DNA from: Thermococcus pacificus
GTDB taxonomy: Archaea > Methanobacteriota_B > Thermococci > Thermococcales > Thermococcaceae
Assembly: GCF_002214485.1 (NCBI RefSeq)
Contig: NZ_CP015102.1
Span: 806,001 to 870,000 of the forward strand
DNA: 64,000 nucleotides
Direction of reading: 5' to 3'
In this document: positions 11,846-49,934 of the stretch, piece by piece
Position numbering within the stretch: position 1 is the first letter of the stretch
Layout of the letters: each line of letters opens with the position of its first letter
Notes under the pieces: model-generated
What the model saw: only the letters and a program-made list of their open reading frames with translations
The model's database searches: none
What the model was told of the DNA's origin: nothing
Translations under genes and position numbers: made by a program

Positions 11846-12022
11846 TCATTCCTCTTCGTAGACGACGATCCTAACCTTTCTGCCCTTAACGGCCTCCTTA
11901 AGCTTCCACCACAGCTCCGTCGGCTCCTCGCTCCTGTGCGTCAGCTCATGGCCGTTCTCCATTCTGACCTTTTTCTCTTCATACTTCACAAAAACACCGC
12001 TTTCATTGAATATCTCCTTCAT
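11846..12022 (-). CDS. Small uncharacterised charged protein (58 aa)
   Basis: A short gene in the otherwise unexplained gap between the HAD and DUF4392 genes. The reading is MKEIFNESGVFVKYEEKKVR, then MENGHELTHRSEEPTELWWK, then LKEAVKGRKVRIVVYEEE. Its ATG overlaps the TGA of the HAD gene (ATGA), and the next gene starts 3 nt after its stop, strong signs of translational coupling. It is rich in Lys and Glu with a TELWWKLKEAV helix and no known motif. I do not recognise a family. Confidence 0.7.
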   Translation of the reverse strand: MKEIFNESGVFVKYEEKKVRMENGHELTHRSEEPTELWWKLKEAVKGRKVRIVVYEEE

Positions 12023-12663
12023 TCCACTCCCCCCAGGATTTTCCTAAGCTCGTGAAGGGTTCTTATTTCATAGTCTGCCATGTGATAGCCGGGTTCTCCA
12101 TCGCGGTTTATCCAAACGGCTGTCATCCCAACGTTCTTCGCGCCGTAAACGTCCTGGCTGAGGGAATCGCCGACCATTAAAGCCTCCTCCGGCTCAACCC
12201 CTGCATTCTCCAGGGCGTGGAGGAAGATCTTTGGTTCGGGCTTTATCGCCTTTACATCATCCCTCGTGACGATTACATCGAAGTAGCCGCTCAAACCAGT
12301 GAGTTCAAGCTTGAGCCTCTGATAGGCAGGCCCGCTGGTGATGACGCCGAGTTTGTAGCCCTCACCCTTGAGCCACTCGAGGGTCGGAAGGGTGTCTGGG
12401 TAAACATGAATCTTGTGGGGGTAGCGCTTCATCAGTTCAGAGTAGTCCATGTCAAGGTCGAAGAGCTTGAAGAAGAAGTTCCAGTCGTGCCAGTCGTAGG
12501 TGTCCCTCCTGCCGAATATCTCCCTTAGAAAGCGCTCCCTGGCACTCTCCCTGTCGATTCCGAGCTTCTTTGAGAGTTTCTCGTAGACCTGGGGCAGGAA
12601 CAGCTCTATGAGTGGCATTTCGGTTAGCAGGGTTCCGTCTATGTCGAAGAACACCGCCTTCAT
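12019..12663 (-). CDS. HAD-superfamily hydrolase
   Basis: A 214-residue phosphatase-like protein starting at ATG 12663 (MKAVFFDIDGT). Motif I is FFDIDGTLLTE, a helical type-C1 cap follows (about residues 15-85), motif II lies in LGVITSGPA, the motif III Lys in IKPEPKIF, and motif IV is MVGDSLSQDVYGAKNVGM. It resembles the phosphoglycolate phosphatase/haloacid dehalogenase-like group common in Thermococcales; the substrate is unknown. Its start is 4 nt after the stop of the FtsZ-like gene and its stop overlaps the next start. Confidence 0.85.
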   Translation of the reverse strand: MKAVFFDIDGTLLTEMPLIELFLPQVYEKLSKKLGIDRESARERFLREIFGRRDTYDWHDWNFFFKLFDLDMDYSELMKRYPHKIHVYPDTLPTLEWLKGEGYKLGVITSGPAYQRLKLELTGLSGYFDVIVTRDDVKAIKPEPKIFLHALENAGVEPEEALMVGDSLSQDVYGAKNVGMTAVWINRDGEPGYHMADYEIRTLHELRKILGGVE

Positions 12664-12667
12664 GCTA

Positions 12668-13423
12668 TCACCACTTCCTGACCAGTAGGGAGAGTATCTC
12701 AACCTCCCTGTCGAGGTTCTCGTCGATTATGACGCCCCAGATTATGTCCTTTTCGGAGAGTATCTCCTGGAAGTTCTTAAGTATTCTGTGGGCGTTCATG
12801 AGGGGGAACTCGTTGCCCACAAGTATGCCTATAAGCCCGCGCTCCCAGATCCCCCAGTGCCAGTTAAAGTCCACCTTGCGGAGAAGGCGGAGGATCCCAA
12901 CGTTTCCGCCCTTTATCATGTTGAAGAGGTCTGCGTAGTCTATGTTCACCAGCATCTGATTCTCCAAGTAGTAGTGCAGGCGGGAGAACATCTCCGCTAT
13001 GTGCCGCGAGGCGGCGTAAAACGCCGTGGCAAGGGGCTCGTCAGGCCCCCTGAAAAATTCCCAAAGGGAGTCGTAGAAGACAGTCTCAAACTGTTCAGCC
13101 CAGGGGGGCTTTTTTTCCGTAACCAGCTCCCTCTTGGGTGTGAGCACGTAGGCGAGGTTTATTGTGTCGGAAGGGACACTGTCAAGTATTATCTCGCGAA
13201 CCAGGTGGTTTGCCTCCTTATCTTCAAATATGAGCCACAGAAACGTGTTCTCCGGAAGGCGGGAGAAGAAGTCCCTGAGCTTCTTCTCATGGGCTTGAGC
13301 ACGGGGCATGAGAAGATACGCGGGGTTAACGGTCACCCTAACCGTCCCGTCGGCATGTATGTTGTTCACGATTCTAGCACCCGCGTTCCCGATTCCAACA
13401 AAAAGGTGGGTAAAAGATTGCAT
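12668..13423 (-). CDS. Divergent FtsZ/tubulin-fold protein lacking the GTPase signature
   Basis: A 251-residue protein; ATG 13423 (MQSFTHLFVG) is chosen because the homology begins there. It aligns along its length with the true FtsZ at 48810-49934. FVGIGNAGARIVNNI matches Fts[38 protein letters not shown] matches [22 protein letters not shown], and IIWGVIIDENLDREVEIL matches [18 protein letters not shown]. The FtsZ tubulin signature GGGTGTG is replaced by a segment around LIFEDKEANHLVREIIL (residues 65-80), so GTP hydrolysis by a filament is doubtful. It heads the packed five-gene unit and follows the HPS-PHI gene by 50 nt. Confidence 0.7.
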   Translation of the reverse strand: MQSFTHLFVGIGNAGARIVNNIHADGTVRVTVNPAYLLMPRAQAHEKKLRDFFSRLPENTFLWLIFEDKEANHLVREIILDSVPSDTINLAYVLTPKRELVTEKKPPWAEQFETVFYDSLWEFFRGPDEPLATAFYAASRHIAEMFSRLHYYLENQMLVNIDYADLFNMIKGGNVGILRLLRKVDFNWHWGIWERGLIGILVGNEFPLMNAHRILKNFQEILSEKDIIWGVIIDENLDREVEILSLLVRKW

Positions 13424-13473: not shown

Positions 13474-14694
13474 TCACTCCAGAGTGGCGTGCTTCCTCTT
13501 CATGTCCTTCTCGGTCTTCTGGAAGGTGGCCATTAGGAGAGCTATAACGCCGTCGAGGAATATCATCGTTGAGTCCTCGAAGAGCGTTCCCATCGGGGCT
13601 ATCCACTTGTACTTGGTGAGCATCTGGCGGGCTATGTAGTCGGTCGGAACGTCGCTCTTAGTTCTTCCCGGTATCTCAAGGACGACATCGGCGAGCTTTC
13701 CAAGGGTGGAATTGGCGTAGGACGTTATTGCGACAACCTTTCCGCCCTGGGCCCTTGCTATCTGAGCAGCGTCGACGATGCTCTTGGTTTCTCCGGAACC
13801 GCTGATGGCTATTAGGAGGTCCCCCTGCTCGAATGCCGGCGTTATCGTCTCACCGACGACGTAGACGTTGAAGTCGAGGTGCATGAGCCTCATGGCGAAG
13901 GCCTTTCCAACGAGGCCGCTCCTTCCTGCACCGTAGATGAATATCTTGTTCGCCCCTATCATGGCGTCAACGAAGCCGCGAACCTGCTCCAGCTTGAGGC
14001 TCTCCGCAACCCCGTTTATGTGCTCGGTTATGTCGGTCATGGCCTTCCTTATCGTCATCATATACTCGCCCCAGAAGAGGTCTATTATCTTCCTCGTAAC
14101 GTCCTCCGGATCCTCGGCCTTCGTTATGGCGCCGCCTACGATTATTATGGTGGCACCGAGCTCTACCACCTTCGGAATGGTCTGGAGGTTGAGGCCGCCC
14201 GCAACTGCAACGGGAACCTTGACGGCCTTGACGACCTTCTCAAGGTCTTCGAGCGGGCTCTTCCCCTGGACCTGCTCGTCTATACCGGTGTGGACGAGTA
14301 TGTAGTGAACGCCCATCTTCTCGAGTTCCTTGGCGCGCTTCACCTTGTCCTTGACGCCTATGAGGTCGACCATGACCCTTATCCCGTAGCGTCTGGCGAC
14401 TTCAACCGCGTCCATTATGGTTTTGTCGTCGGCAACGCCGAGGATGGAGACGACGTCCGCGCCGTGCCTCGCCGCCATCTCGACTTCGAGGGCCCCGGTG
14501 TCCATGGTCTTTAGATCGGCGACGATTTTCCTGTCCGGGAAGCGCCTCTTCATGAGTTCGACGGCGCGCATTCCCTCCTTCTTGATGAGTGGAGTTCCGA
14601 CCTCAAGCCAGTGGGCACCGCCGCGTGCGGCTTTCTCGGCAATAGAAATGGCCTGTTCAATGTCAGTAAGGTCAAGGGCAACTTGAAGTATCAT
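13474..14694 (-). CDS. Fused 3-hexulose-6-phosphate synthase / 6-phospho-3-hexuloisomerase
   Basis: A bifunctional ribulose monophosphate pathway enzyme, run in Thermococcales mainly in reverse, turning fructose 6-phosphate into ribulose 5-phosphate plus formaldehyde. Residues about 1-210 form the HPS barrel (ADLKTMDTGALEVEMAARHGADVVSILG, VDLIGVKDK, VHTGIDEQ, VAVAGGLN). Residues about 220-406 form the SIS-domain isomerase (IFIYGAGRSGLVGKAFAMRLMHLDF, LLIAISGSGETKSIVD). Start is ATG 14694 (MILQVALDL), where the barrel begins. The fusion is the usual state in this order. It links to rpiA at 541-1224. Confidence 0.94.
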   Translation of the reverse strand: MILQVALDLTDIEQAISIAEKAARGGAHWLEVGTPLIKKEGMRAVELMKRRFPDRKIVADLKTMDTGALEVEMAARHGADVVSILGVADDKTIMDAVEVARRYGIRVMVDLIGVKDKVKRAKELEKMGVHYILVHTGIDEQVQGKSPLEDLEKVVKAVKVPVAVAGGLNLQTIPKVVELGATIIIVGGAITKAEDPEDVTRKIIDLFWGEYMMTIRKAMTDITEHINGVAESLKLEQVRGFVDAMIGANKIFIYGAGRSGLVGKAFAMRLMHLDFNVYVVGETITPAFEQGDLLIAISGSGETKSIVDAAQIARAQGGKVVAITSYANSTLGKLADVVLEIPGRTKSDVPTDYIARQMLTKYKWIAPMGTLFEDSTMIFLDGVIALLMATFQKTEKDMKRKHATLE

Positions 14695-14833
14695 CTCCTC
14701 GCCTCCGAAGAGTTTTCGATTTAAGCTTGCAGTGCTACTTTTTAAACTTTGGCTTCCTGAATTGACACAAAAATGTCCAAGTCCTTCGCCAAGGTTTAAA
14801 AGAGATTGGGACAACTCACGCCGGTGGAATCAA

Positions 14834-15563: not shown

Positions 15564-15887
15564 ATGAAGGGCCCAACCGAGTGGGAGATGCGGAACATCA
15601 TAATGCCCCTCCTGCTCTCCGGCGCGAAGATGCTCGACAGACACTGCCCCAAGTGCGGCTCGCCCCTCTTTGAGAAGGACGGCAGGGTTTTCTGCCCCGT
15701 CTGCGAGCACAGGGCGAAGCAGGAAAAGAGCGAGATGAGGGGCGTCGAGGAGAGGCTGAAGGAGAAACTCTCCGAGCTAGCAAACTCCCTGCCGGATGAT
15801 ATCGACGAACTGGAGAAACACTTAAGGGCAATGGAGAAGATAATAGAACTGCTGGAGCGCTACAGAAAACTGGAGGGAGGAGAATGA
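15564..15887 (+). CDS. Zinc-ribbon protein of the Sjogren/scleroderma autoantigen 1 type
   Basis: A 107-residue protein: an N-terminal helix (EWEMRNIIMPLLLSGAKMLDRH), then a two-Cys-pair ribbon HCPKCGSPLFEKDGRVFCPVCEHRA (residues about 29-53), then a charged coiled-coil tail. This matches the archaeal homologues of the human autoantigen p27, whose molecular role is unclear. It lies 4 nt after the ureohydrolase-like gene and overlaps the next gene by 4 nt. Confidence 0.8.
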   Translation: MKGPTEWEMRNIIMPLLLSGAKMLDRHCPKCGSPLFEKDGRVFCPVCEHRAKQEKSEMRGVEERLKEKLSELANSLPDDIDELEKHLRAMEKIIELLERYRKLEGGE

Positions 15888-16096
15888 AGAACGTGAAGGT
15901 GCTGGAGGCCCTTAACGACGGCCCGAAGACCATCGAGGAGATAGCCGAGAAAACGGGCATAAAGCCTATGGAGGTAAGGCGCTACCTGCTCCGCTTCGTC
16001 GAGCAGGGGAAGGTTGAGAGCTATCAGAAGGAAGGCAAGCTCTTCTGGAAGATCAAGGAGAAGAGCGAGGAAGAAGAGGAGTTTAAGTACGTCTGA
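15884..16096 (+). CDS. Small winged-helix DNA-binding protein
   Basis: A 70-residue protein with a clear helix-turn-helix, ALNDGPKTIEEIAEKTGIKPMEVRRYLLRFVEQGKVESYQKEGK, where the last part forms the wing. It may regulate its own unit, since its start overlaps the zinc-ribbon gene stop by 4 nt. No sensor domain is present. Targets are not deducible. Confidence 0.8.
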   Translation: MKNVKVLEALNDGPKTIEEIAEKTGIKPMEVRRYLLRFVEQGKVESYQKEGKLFWKIKEKSEEEEEFKYV

Positions 16097-48809: not shown

Positions 48810-49934
48810 ATGCTGAAGCTGATTGAAGACGCCATTGAAAGGACCTCCGCCGCCCCCAACAAAATCCCGGAGGCTCAGGCTCCGCAAACTGATATCGATG
48901 AGGAGCTCAAGAGGATTCTTGAGCAGATCCAGGCAAAGATATATGTTGTTGGTGTCGGCGGTGCCGGATGCAACACCATTAACAGGATGATGCAGGTCGG
49001 TATACAGGGGGCAAAGGTCATAGCAATTAACACCGATGCCCAGGATCTCCTAAAGGTTCGCGCCCACAAGAAGATACTCATCGGTAAGGAGCTTACCCGG
49101 GGTCTCGGTGCCGGAAACAATCCCAAGATGGGTGAGGAAGCCGCTAAGGAGAGCGAGAGGGAAATACGGGAGGCCCTTGAAGGGGCGGATATGGTCTTCA
49201 TCACCTGCGGTCTCGGTGGCGGAACTGGAACCGGTGCTGCTCCGGTCGTTGCCGAGATGGCCAAGAAGATGGGCGCTCTGACTGTTTCAGTGGTTACCCT
49301 TCCGTTTACGGTAGAGGGAATAAGGCGCATTAAGAACGCAGAGTACGGTCTCGAGAGGCTCAGGAAGAACAGCGACACCGTCATAGTCATCCCGAACGAC
49401 AAGCTCATGGAGGTTGCCCCGAACCTCCCGATCCACATGGCCTTTAAAGTGGCCGACGAGATACTCGTCCAAGCGGTCAAGGGCATCACCGAGCTCATTA
49501 CCAAGCCCGGACTGGTGAACCTCGACTTCAACGACGTTAGGGCCGTCATGAAGGACGGCGGAGTTGCCATGATCGGTATAGGCGAGAGTGACAGCGAGAA
49601 GCGCGCCCTCGAAGCCGCCCAGCAGGCTTTGAACAGCCCGCTCCTCGACGTCGACATCAGCGGTGCAAAGGGCGCTTTGATAAGCATCAGCGGAAGCGAC
49701 GTCAAGCTTGAGGAGGCCCAGCAGATAATCGAGCTCGTCACGAGCAAGCTTGACCCCGAGGCACAGGTCATCTGGGGCATCCAGCTCGACGAGGAACTTA
49801 ACAAAATGATAAGGATCCTCATAGTAGTCACCGGCGTCAGCTCACCCTACGCCGTCGCGGGGGAAGAGGAGACATCCTACTACGGTGAGGAGCAGGAGAG
49901 AAAAATTATTAAGCTCGACCTTGAGGAGCTTTGA
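48810..49934 (+). CDS. ftsZ: Cell division GTPase FtsZ
   Basis: A tubulin-like GTPase forming the division ring. The 374 residues start at ATG 48810 behind GGAGGGTG, after an N-terminal tail of about 50 residues. The core has [16 protein letters not shown], the tubulin signature [27 protein letters not shown] and the T7-loop region [13 protein letters not shown]. The C-terminal end is acidic ([23 protein letters not shown]). It leads the conserved ftsZ-secE-spt5-ribosomal protein run. Compare the divergent paralogue at 12668-13423. Confidence 0.96.

Follow-up and report, generated by a model that had tools for sequence, protein, structure and literature searches.

An FtsZ-Like Protein of the Thermococcaceae Lacks Most GTP-Contacting Residues and Retains the T7 Catalytic Loop

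Almost all sequenced members of Thermococcus, Pyrococcus, and their close relatives encode a fourth relative of FtsZ within the tubulin superfamily, one that has gone unannotated. Judged from its alignment with FtsZ, this pseudo-FtsZ, here termed FZL, has undergone a one-sided loss: its cis contacts with GTP are gone, save for the T1 glycines, whereas the T7 residues that FtsZ supplies in trans are invariant. The chances are a little short of even that FZL, an FtsZ paralogue with only the catalytic T7 face, docks on FtsZ, caps it, and activates its GTPase.

Gene and Distribution

The FZL gene occupies positions 12668..13423 on the minus strand of the window (the whole stretch of Thermococcus pacificus DNA that was analysed, 64,000 nucleotides) and encodes 251 residues plus a stop. 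The open reading frame begins with ATG, with an SD-like GGGGTGG closely 5' to it. The preliminary description of this gene proposed that conservation across the Thermococcales be checked. Orthologs are present in 89 of 94 Thermococcaceae genomes, and in 72 of the 74 good genomes, covering all six genera; each of the five genomes with no match is a fragmented draft. Ortholog identities reach down to about 50%, and across the 76 distinct sequences conservation is 98% or higher at 52 of the 251 positions. FZL is a real, core gene of the Thermococcaceae.

One draft genome (G095) holds, beside an intact copy, a second FZL copy that is broken (L154, G095:C2:360947-361698; two frames, one stop). The assembly may be mixed, or a strain variant may carry a frameshift.

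No orthologs were found outside the Thermococcaceae among 396 archaeal genomes searched, which are samples comprising 21 genomes from the same phylum and 23, 200, and 152 from three further archaeal phyla. That search yielded no full-length match, and the seven partial matches inspected are all canonical FtsZ with the GTP signature. A BFVD search returned only phage FtsZ/PhuZ-like matches and no nearer relative.

FtsZ1, FtsZ2 (region G000:C1:25847-26353), CetZ, and SepF are all present in the window's genome. Among 31 Thermococcaceae genomes, FtsZ1 is present in each, and the three canonical members in all but one incomplete draft. Weak Tubulin-domain matches also occur within open frames of more than 1100 aa in two genomes (G064:C1:1627565 and G078:C1:725233); these may be extra divergent superfamily proteins, as reported for a few Thermococcus strains.

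Descent and Predicted Fold

Single-sequence searches with FZL match the FtsZ model TIGR00065 at E 8e-5 and Methanocaldococcus jannaschii FtsZ at E 0.0036. The TIGR00065 score is 22.1 bits against a curated cut-off of 295, placing FZL outside the FtsZ equivalog. Every FZL score against Pfam and NCBIfam lies below cut-off; Pfam matches to QSOX_Trx1 and BrxB were rejected on this ground.

Profiles reveal the relationship more plainly. An FZL profile matches M. jannaschii FtsZ in the PDB at E 1.3e-7. Profile alignments (hhalign) score 84.3 for FtsZ2, 63.7 for FtsZ1, and 94.5 for a joint FtsZ/CetZ profile, while the highest scores after column shuffling are 37.3, 28, and 28.6, respectively; the FZL-FtsZ relation is significant (scores of 84-95 versus shuffle maxima of 26-37). 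The comparison with CetZ alone is not significant (probability 1.3; score 22 versus a shuffle maximum of 21), and a CetZ origin is rejected on these profile scores.

Significance in the profile match comes from residues 110-251, the C-terminal half. By sequence, the N-terminal half taken alone has no significant match; its assignment follows from the full-length alignment and the predicted fold. In that alignment, FZL VGIGNAG lies opposite T1 VGVGGAG, and FZL VTVNPAYLL opposite the FtsZ S2-T2-H2 segment.

In a tree, FZL falls toward FtsZ2, with a branch length of 3.7 substitutions per site. Profile scores and tree agree in suggesting, although they do not prove, that FZL is nearer to FtsZ2 than to FtsZ1, a kinship that is error-prone because very long branches can be misplaced.

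With the window's FZL as first sequence, AF2 gave a model of pLDDT 66.7 and a TM of about 0.4 to FtsZ, which is weak support. With an ortholog (L010) first among the same 13 sequences, the model reached pLDDT 85 and pTM 0.86. Its elements run S1 H1 S2 H2 H3 S4 H4 S5 S6 H6 H7 T7 H8 S7 (loop) S8 H10 S9 S10, the FtsZ order minus H9, with a central H7 of 24 residues. A Foldseek search with the ortholog model gave 138 PDB matches at E <= 0.001; every one of the best 50 of the 138 is an FtsZ, with a lowest E of 4.9e-12 and a TM that reaches 0.73 for 1fsz. By predicted fold and by descent, FZL is thus a tubulin/FtsZ-fold protein and a member of the superfamily. The preliminary description had called it an FtsZ-fold paralogue, naming structure prediction and fold search as the test and a fold unlike tubulin/FtsZ as the refuting outcome; no such fold was seen, and the profile matches far above shuffles concur. 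The shortened middle that it noticed is likewise evident: a T3 stretch of about 26 aa, 8 aa of T4, T5/H5, and H9 are absent.

Residues Lost and Kept

FZL was compared with its relatives in an alignment of the 76 distinct FZL sequences with 41 FtsZ1/FtsZ2 and 11 CetZ sequences from the same organisms. The principal features are these:

13379..13396, minus strand: T1-loop equivalent, G10-I-G12-N-A-G15; glycines invariant or in 75 of 76 sequences.
13208..13228, minus strand: site of the T4 signature, residues 66-72; GGGTGTG deleted, FED-K-x-x-N instead, N72 invariant.
13067..13090, minus strand: F112-ETVFYD-S119, the most conserved stretch; S6/former T6, on the former nucleotide face; base-contacting Asn absent.
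12929..12955, minus strand: T7 loop, M157-LVNIDYA-D165; N160, D162, A164, and D165 invariant in all 76.
12836..12862, minus strand: tryptophan loop, W188-H-W-G-I-W-E-R-G196; replaces FtsZ helix H9; family-specific.
12671..12754, minus strand: S9-S10 hairpin, EKDIIWGV...VEILSLLVRKW; ends at invariant W251, without the FtsZ C-terminal tail.
48810..49934, plus strand: canonical FtsZ1, the comparison protein; GGGTGTG and T7 NLDFND present.

The landmarks first picked out from the sequence are all recognizable here: the nucleotide-loop start is the T1-like GIGNAG, the T7-loop-like region is MLVNIDYAD, and the C-terminal strands are IIWGVIIDENLDREVEIL. The chain stops at S10, and the C-terminal tail for the membrane anchor SepF is missing.

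Thermococcaceae FtsZ1 and FtsZ2 share 128 invariant positions, 14 of which are kept in FZL: G10, G12, and G15 (T1); P96; D118; A134; A138; N160, D162, and D165 (T7); L181; L208; W229; and G230. The presence of all three T7 catalytic residues among these 14 has a hypergeometric P of about 0.001. The T7 catalytic loop NxDxxD is found in all 76 FZL sequences. The T4 signature GGGTG(S/T)G, its absence already remarked in the window's protein, is lacking from all 76 along with the other GTP-binding loops: deletions have removed the T4 loop and the T3 glycines, and the T2 Asp/Gln, T3 Gly, T5 Arg, T6 Asn, and H7 Asp each occur in none.

In SaFtsZ, the catalytic residues N208, D210, and D213 belong to the T7 loop of the adjacent subunit, acting on its neighbor's GTP: in the top subunit, D210 and D213 hold the water that makes the attack, and N208 touches the bottom subunit through both backbone and side chain (PMC8936486). 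With the GTP contacts beyond T1 in none of the 76 sequences and the T7 triad in all, FZL has thus given up its own GTP site while keeping the half that works in trans. The initial proposal that the protein has given up polymer-driven hydrolysis is therefore unsupported as worded, because catalytic residues come from the neighbor's T7 loop, and that triad is invariant here; what has been lost is FZL's own GTP binding. The T7 residues could, nevertheless, be retained for folding.

Conservation peaks at F112-S119 (seven of ten positions), with five of ten in T7. Further invariant residues are W63, N72, E99, L100, P106, W108, and the tryptophan loop W188-W193; in the S2-T2-H2 segment, none of 12 positions is invariant. 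The former nucleotide face has been rebuilt around invariant E99, W108, and F112-S119, not left to decay, and so probably binds something else. Many further FtsZ-conserved positions that closely follow T7 or lie in S10 are changed in FZL (G268, A270, G273, and R352 in the numbering of the window's FtsZ1), so the putative docking surface is not a plain FtsZ copy.

A Putative Partner for FtsZ

Bearing a T7 face without a GTP site, FZL could serve only as the upper partner at an FtsZ interface. In the proposed mechanism, FZL would attach by its T7 face to an FtsZ subunit, probably of FtsZ2, where GTP lies exposed, and N160, D162, and D165 would enter and complete that subunit's GTPase site. FZL would present no GTP to a next subunit, blocking the longitudinal contact and capping the filament. 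FtsZ grows at its bottom, T7-exposing end (PMC8936486); FZL would therefore act at the opposite, shrinking end. By capping this nucleotide-exposing end and activating the GTPase in trans, it would help FtsZ filament turnover. Profile comparison and the long-branch tree make FtsZ2 a more likely partner than FtsZ1 (48810-49934).

A fuller version of this proposal is distinctly tentative. It describes a T7-only pseudo-FtsZ that serves as in-trans GTPase activator and GTP-end cap, with half of the active site deleted and a new partner on the vacated face, and that is a core division factor of the Thermococcaceae.

Were the docking proposal true, FZL would represent a natural separation of the FtsZ half-sites, so that adding a single protein would allow a direct test of the end polarity of FtsZ filaments and of their catalysis in trans. 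It would also be a candidate regulator of FtsZ in the archaea, whose known divisome factors are few.

Gene Neighborhood and Alternative Readings

FZL adjoins neither ftsZ nor sepF, which counts against the FtsZ-docking proposal. Its immediate neighbors in the window are:

13474..14697, minus strand: hps-phi (OMPdecase/HUMPS plus SIS domains), upstream of FZL.
12019..12663, minus strand: HAD-family phosphatase gene, downstream; 4 nt past the FZL stop codon.

The order hps-phi, FZL, HAD phosphatase is found in 53 of 53 loci from the six genera; in most of these, -4 to about 60 nt separate the genes. Because FZL always lies between these genes, a metabolic role remains a rival: FZL may have left the cytoskeleton to become a binding or regulatory subunit for HPS-PHI or the HAD phosphatase, or a metabolite sensor, with the rebuilt top face as its site of action and a T7 loop that is a structural remnant. 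That conservation is strongest at S6/former T6, and not at T7, also fits this role. However, the flanks out to AspRS (GLUCM-like, HD, AspRS) are conserved in most loci too, so the synteny is weak evidence, and a remnant leaves unexplained the invariance of N, D, and D, plus an extra A, in the catalytic loop. A metabolic role is on balance unlikely, although worth serious consideration.

The sole apparent fusion of hps-phi and FZL, a single open frame of 662 aa (L159, G098:C13:16500-19500), was rejected as evidence for such a role: a longer A run is present near the hps-phi end, and the fusion is likely a sequencing error or a recent frameshift.

Small genes also accompany the locus. A small protein encoded at 15567-15884 in the window has a match of zinc-ribbon type (Auto_anti-p27, PF06677). 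It is adjoined by a 70-aa open reading frame at 15884-16096 and is conserved next to the FZL locus in many relatives. A short open reading frame of about 70-90 aa lies between the HAD and GLUCM-like genes in 26 of the 53 loci (L066:5659-5928 and relatives); no such frame was seen there in the window.

The survival of G10, G12, and G15 among the 14 kept positions might be read to mean that FZL still binds a nucleotide or dinucleotide through its T1 GxGxxG and has acquired a new ligand, on which it would act as an enzyme or respond as a switch. This is improbable: the remaining nucleotide contacts are all gone, the T2 strand has no invariant residue, and the glycines may be retained for the turn.

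There is only a slim chance that FZL uses both faces to join FtsZ filaments as a subunit without GTP, or to build oligomers of itself that lack nucleotide, and so weakens or stabilizes the lattice. The FtsZ fold is whole except for T3, T4, T5/H5, and H9, and invariant residues lie on both faces, but the T2 and T3 surfaces, which in FtsZ filaments meet the T7 loop of the following subunit, have been lost or vary (0 of 12 positions invariant in S2-T2-H2).

Finally, the lost GTPase motif and the broken second copy in one draft genome might suggest a decaying paralogue without function, an idea of negligible probability that is already refuted by the conservation of FZL (52 of 251 positions at 98% or more in 76 sequences; gene in 72 of 74 good genomes).

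Comparison with Known Systems

FZL resembles archaeal FtsZ2 and FtsZ1 (TIGR00065, PF00091 plus PF12327) in its predicted fold, S1-S10 order, long central H7, T7 NxDxxD, and archaeal IWG strand S9. It differs in lacking the T3/T4/T5/T6 nucleotide contacts, H9, and the C-terminal tail; in its length of 251 aa; and in scoring below all curated cut-offs. CetZ belongs to the same superfamily and occurs in the same genomes; in contrast to FZL, the CetZ of the window's genome keeps GGGTGAG, and CetZ lacks the T7 Asn (0 of 11); its profile match to FZL is not significant.

The FtsZl1 and FtsZl2 proteins are, like FZL, divergent superfamily members known by distant similarity (Makarova and Koonin 2010, PMC2875224). 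They were detected through the GGGTG(S/T)G loop or through resemblance in its vicinity, so FZL, having no such loop, would escape a search of this kind. Within the accessible portions of three surveys of the archaeal tubulin superfamily (PMC2875224, PMC9856176, PMC8178401), FZL goes unmentioned. Literature text searches, of incomplete coverage, found no description of FZL, and a prior description is possible. An extra divergent superfamily protein is reported in PMC9856176 from two Thermococcus strains only; FZL is near-universal, which rules out their identity. If FZL is what it appears to be, these widely used model hyperthermophiles carry a fourth tubulin-superfamily protein that is uncalled by Pfam and NCBIfam and invisible to GTP-signature searches, and counts of FtsZ-superfamily proteins made by that signature are incomplete.

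SulA blocks FtsZ ends by binding the filament interface. MciZ also binds this interface and caps FtsZ growth (PMC8936486). Whereas these proteins cover the bottom T7 face, FZL would bring a T7 face of its own and cap filaments at the other end, where GTP is exposed.

Going by its descriptions, chloroplast ARC3 comes closest in action to the proposed role. This FtsZ-derived protein is described as acting on FtsZ2, preventing bundling and enhancing GTPase activity (Shaik et al. 2018, as cited in PMC8142252), and as a chimera that joins prokaryotic FtsZ to a PIP5K part (Shimada 2004, as cited in PMC5877594). ARC3, so described, is a plant protein with a eukaryotic PIP5K-derived part, whereas FZL is a single domain of 251 aa with an intact T7 triad.
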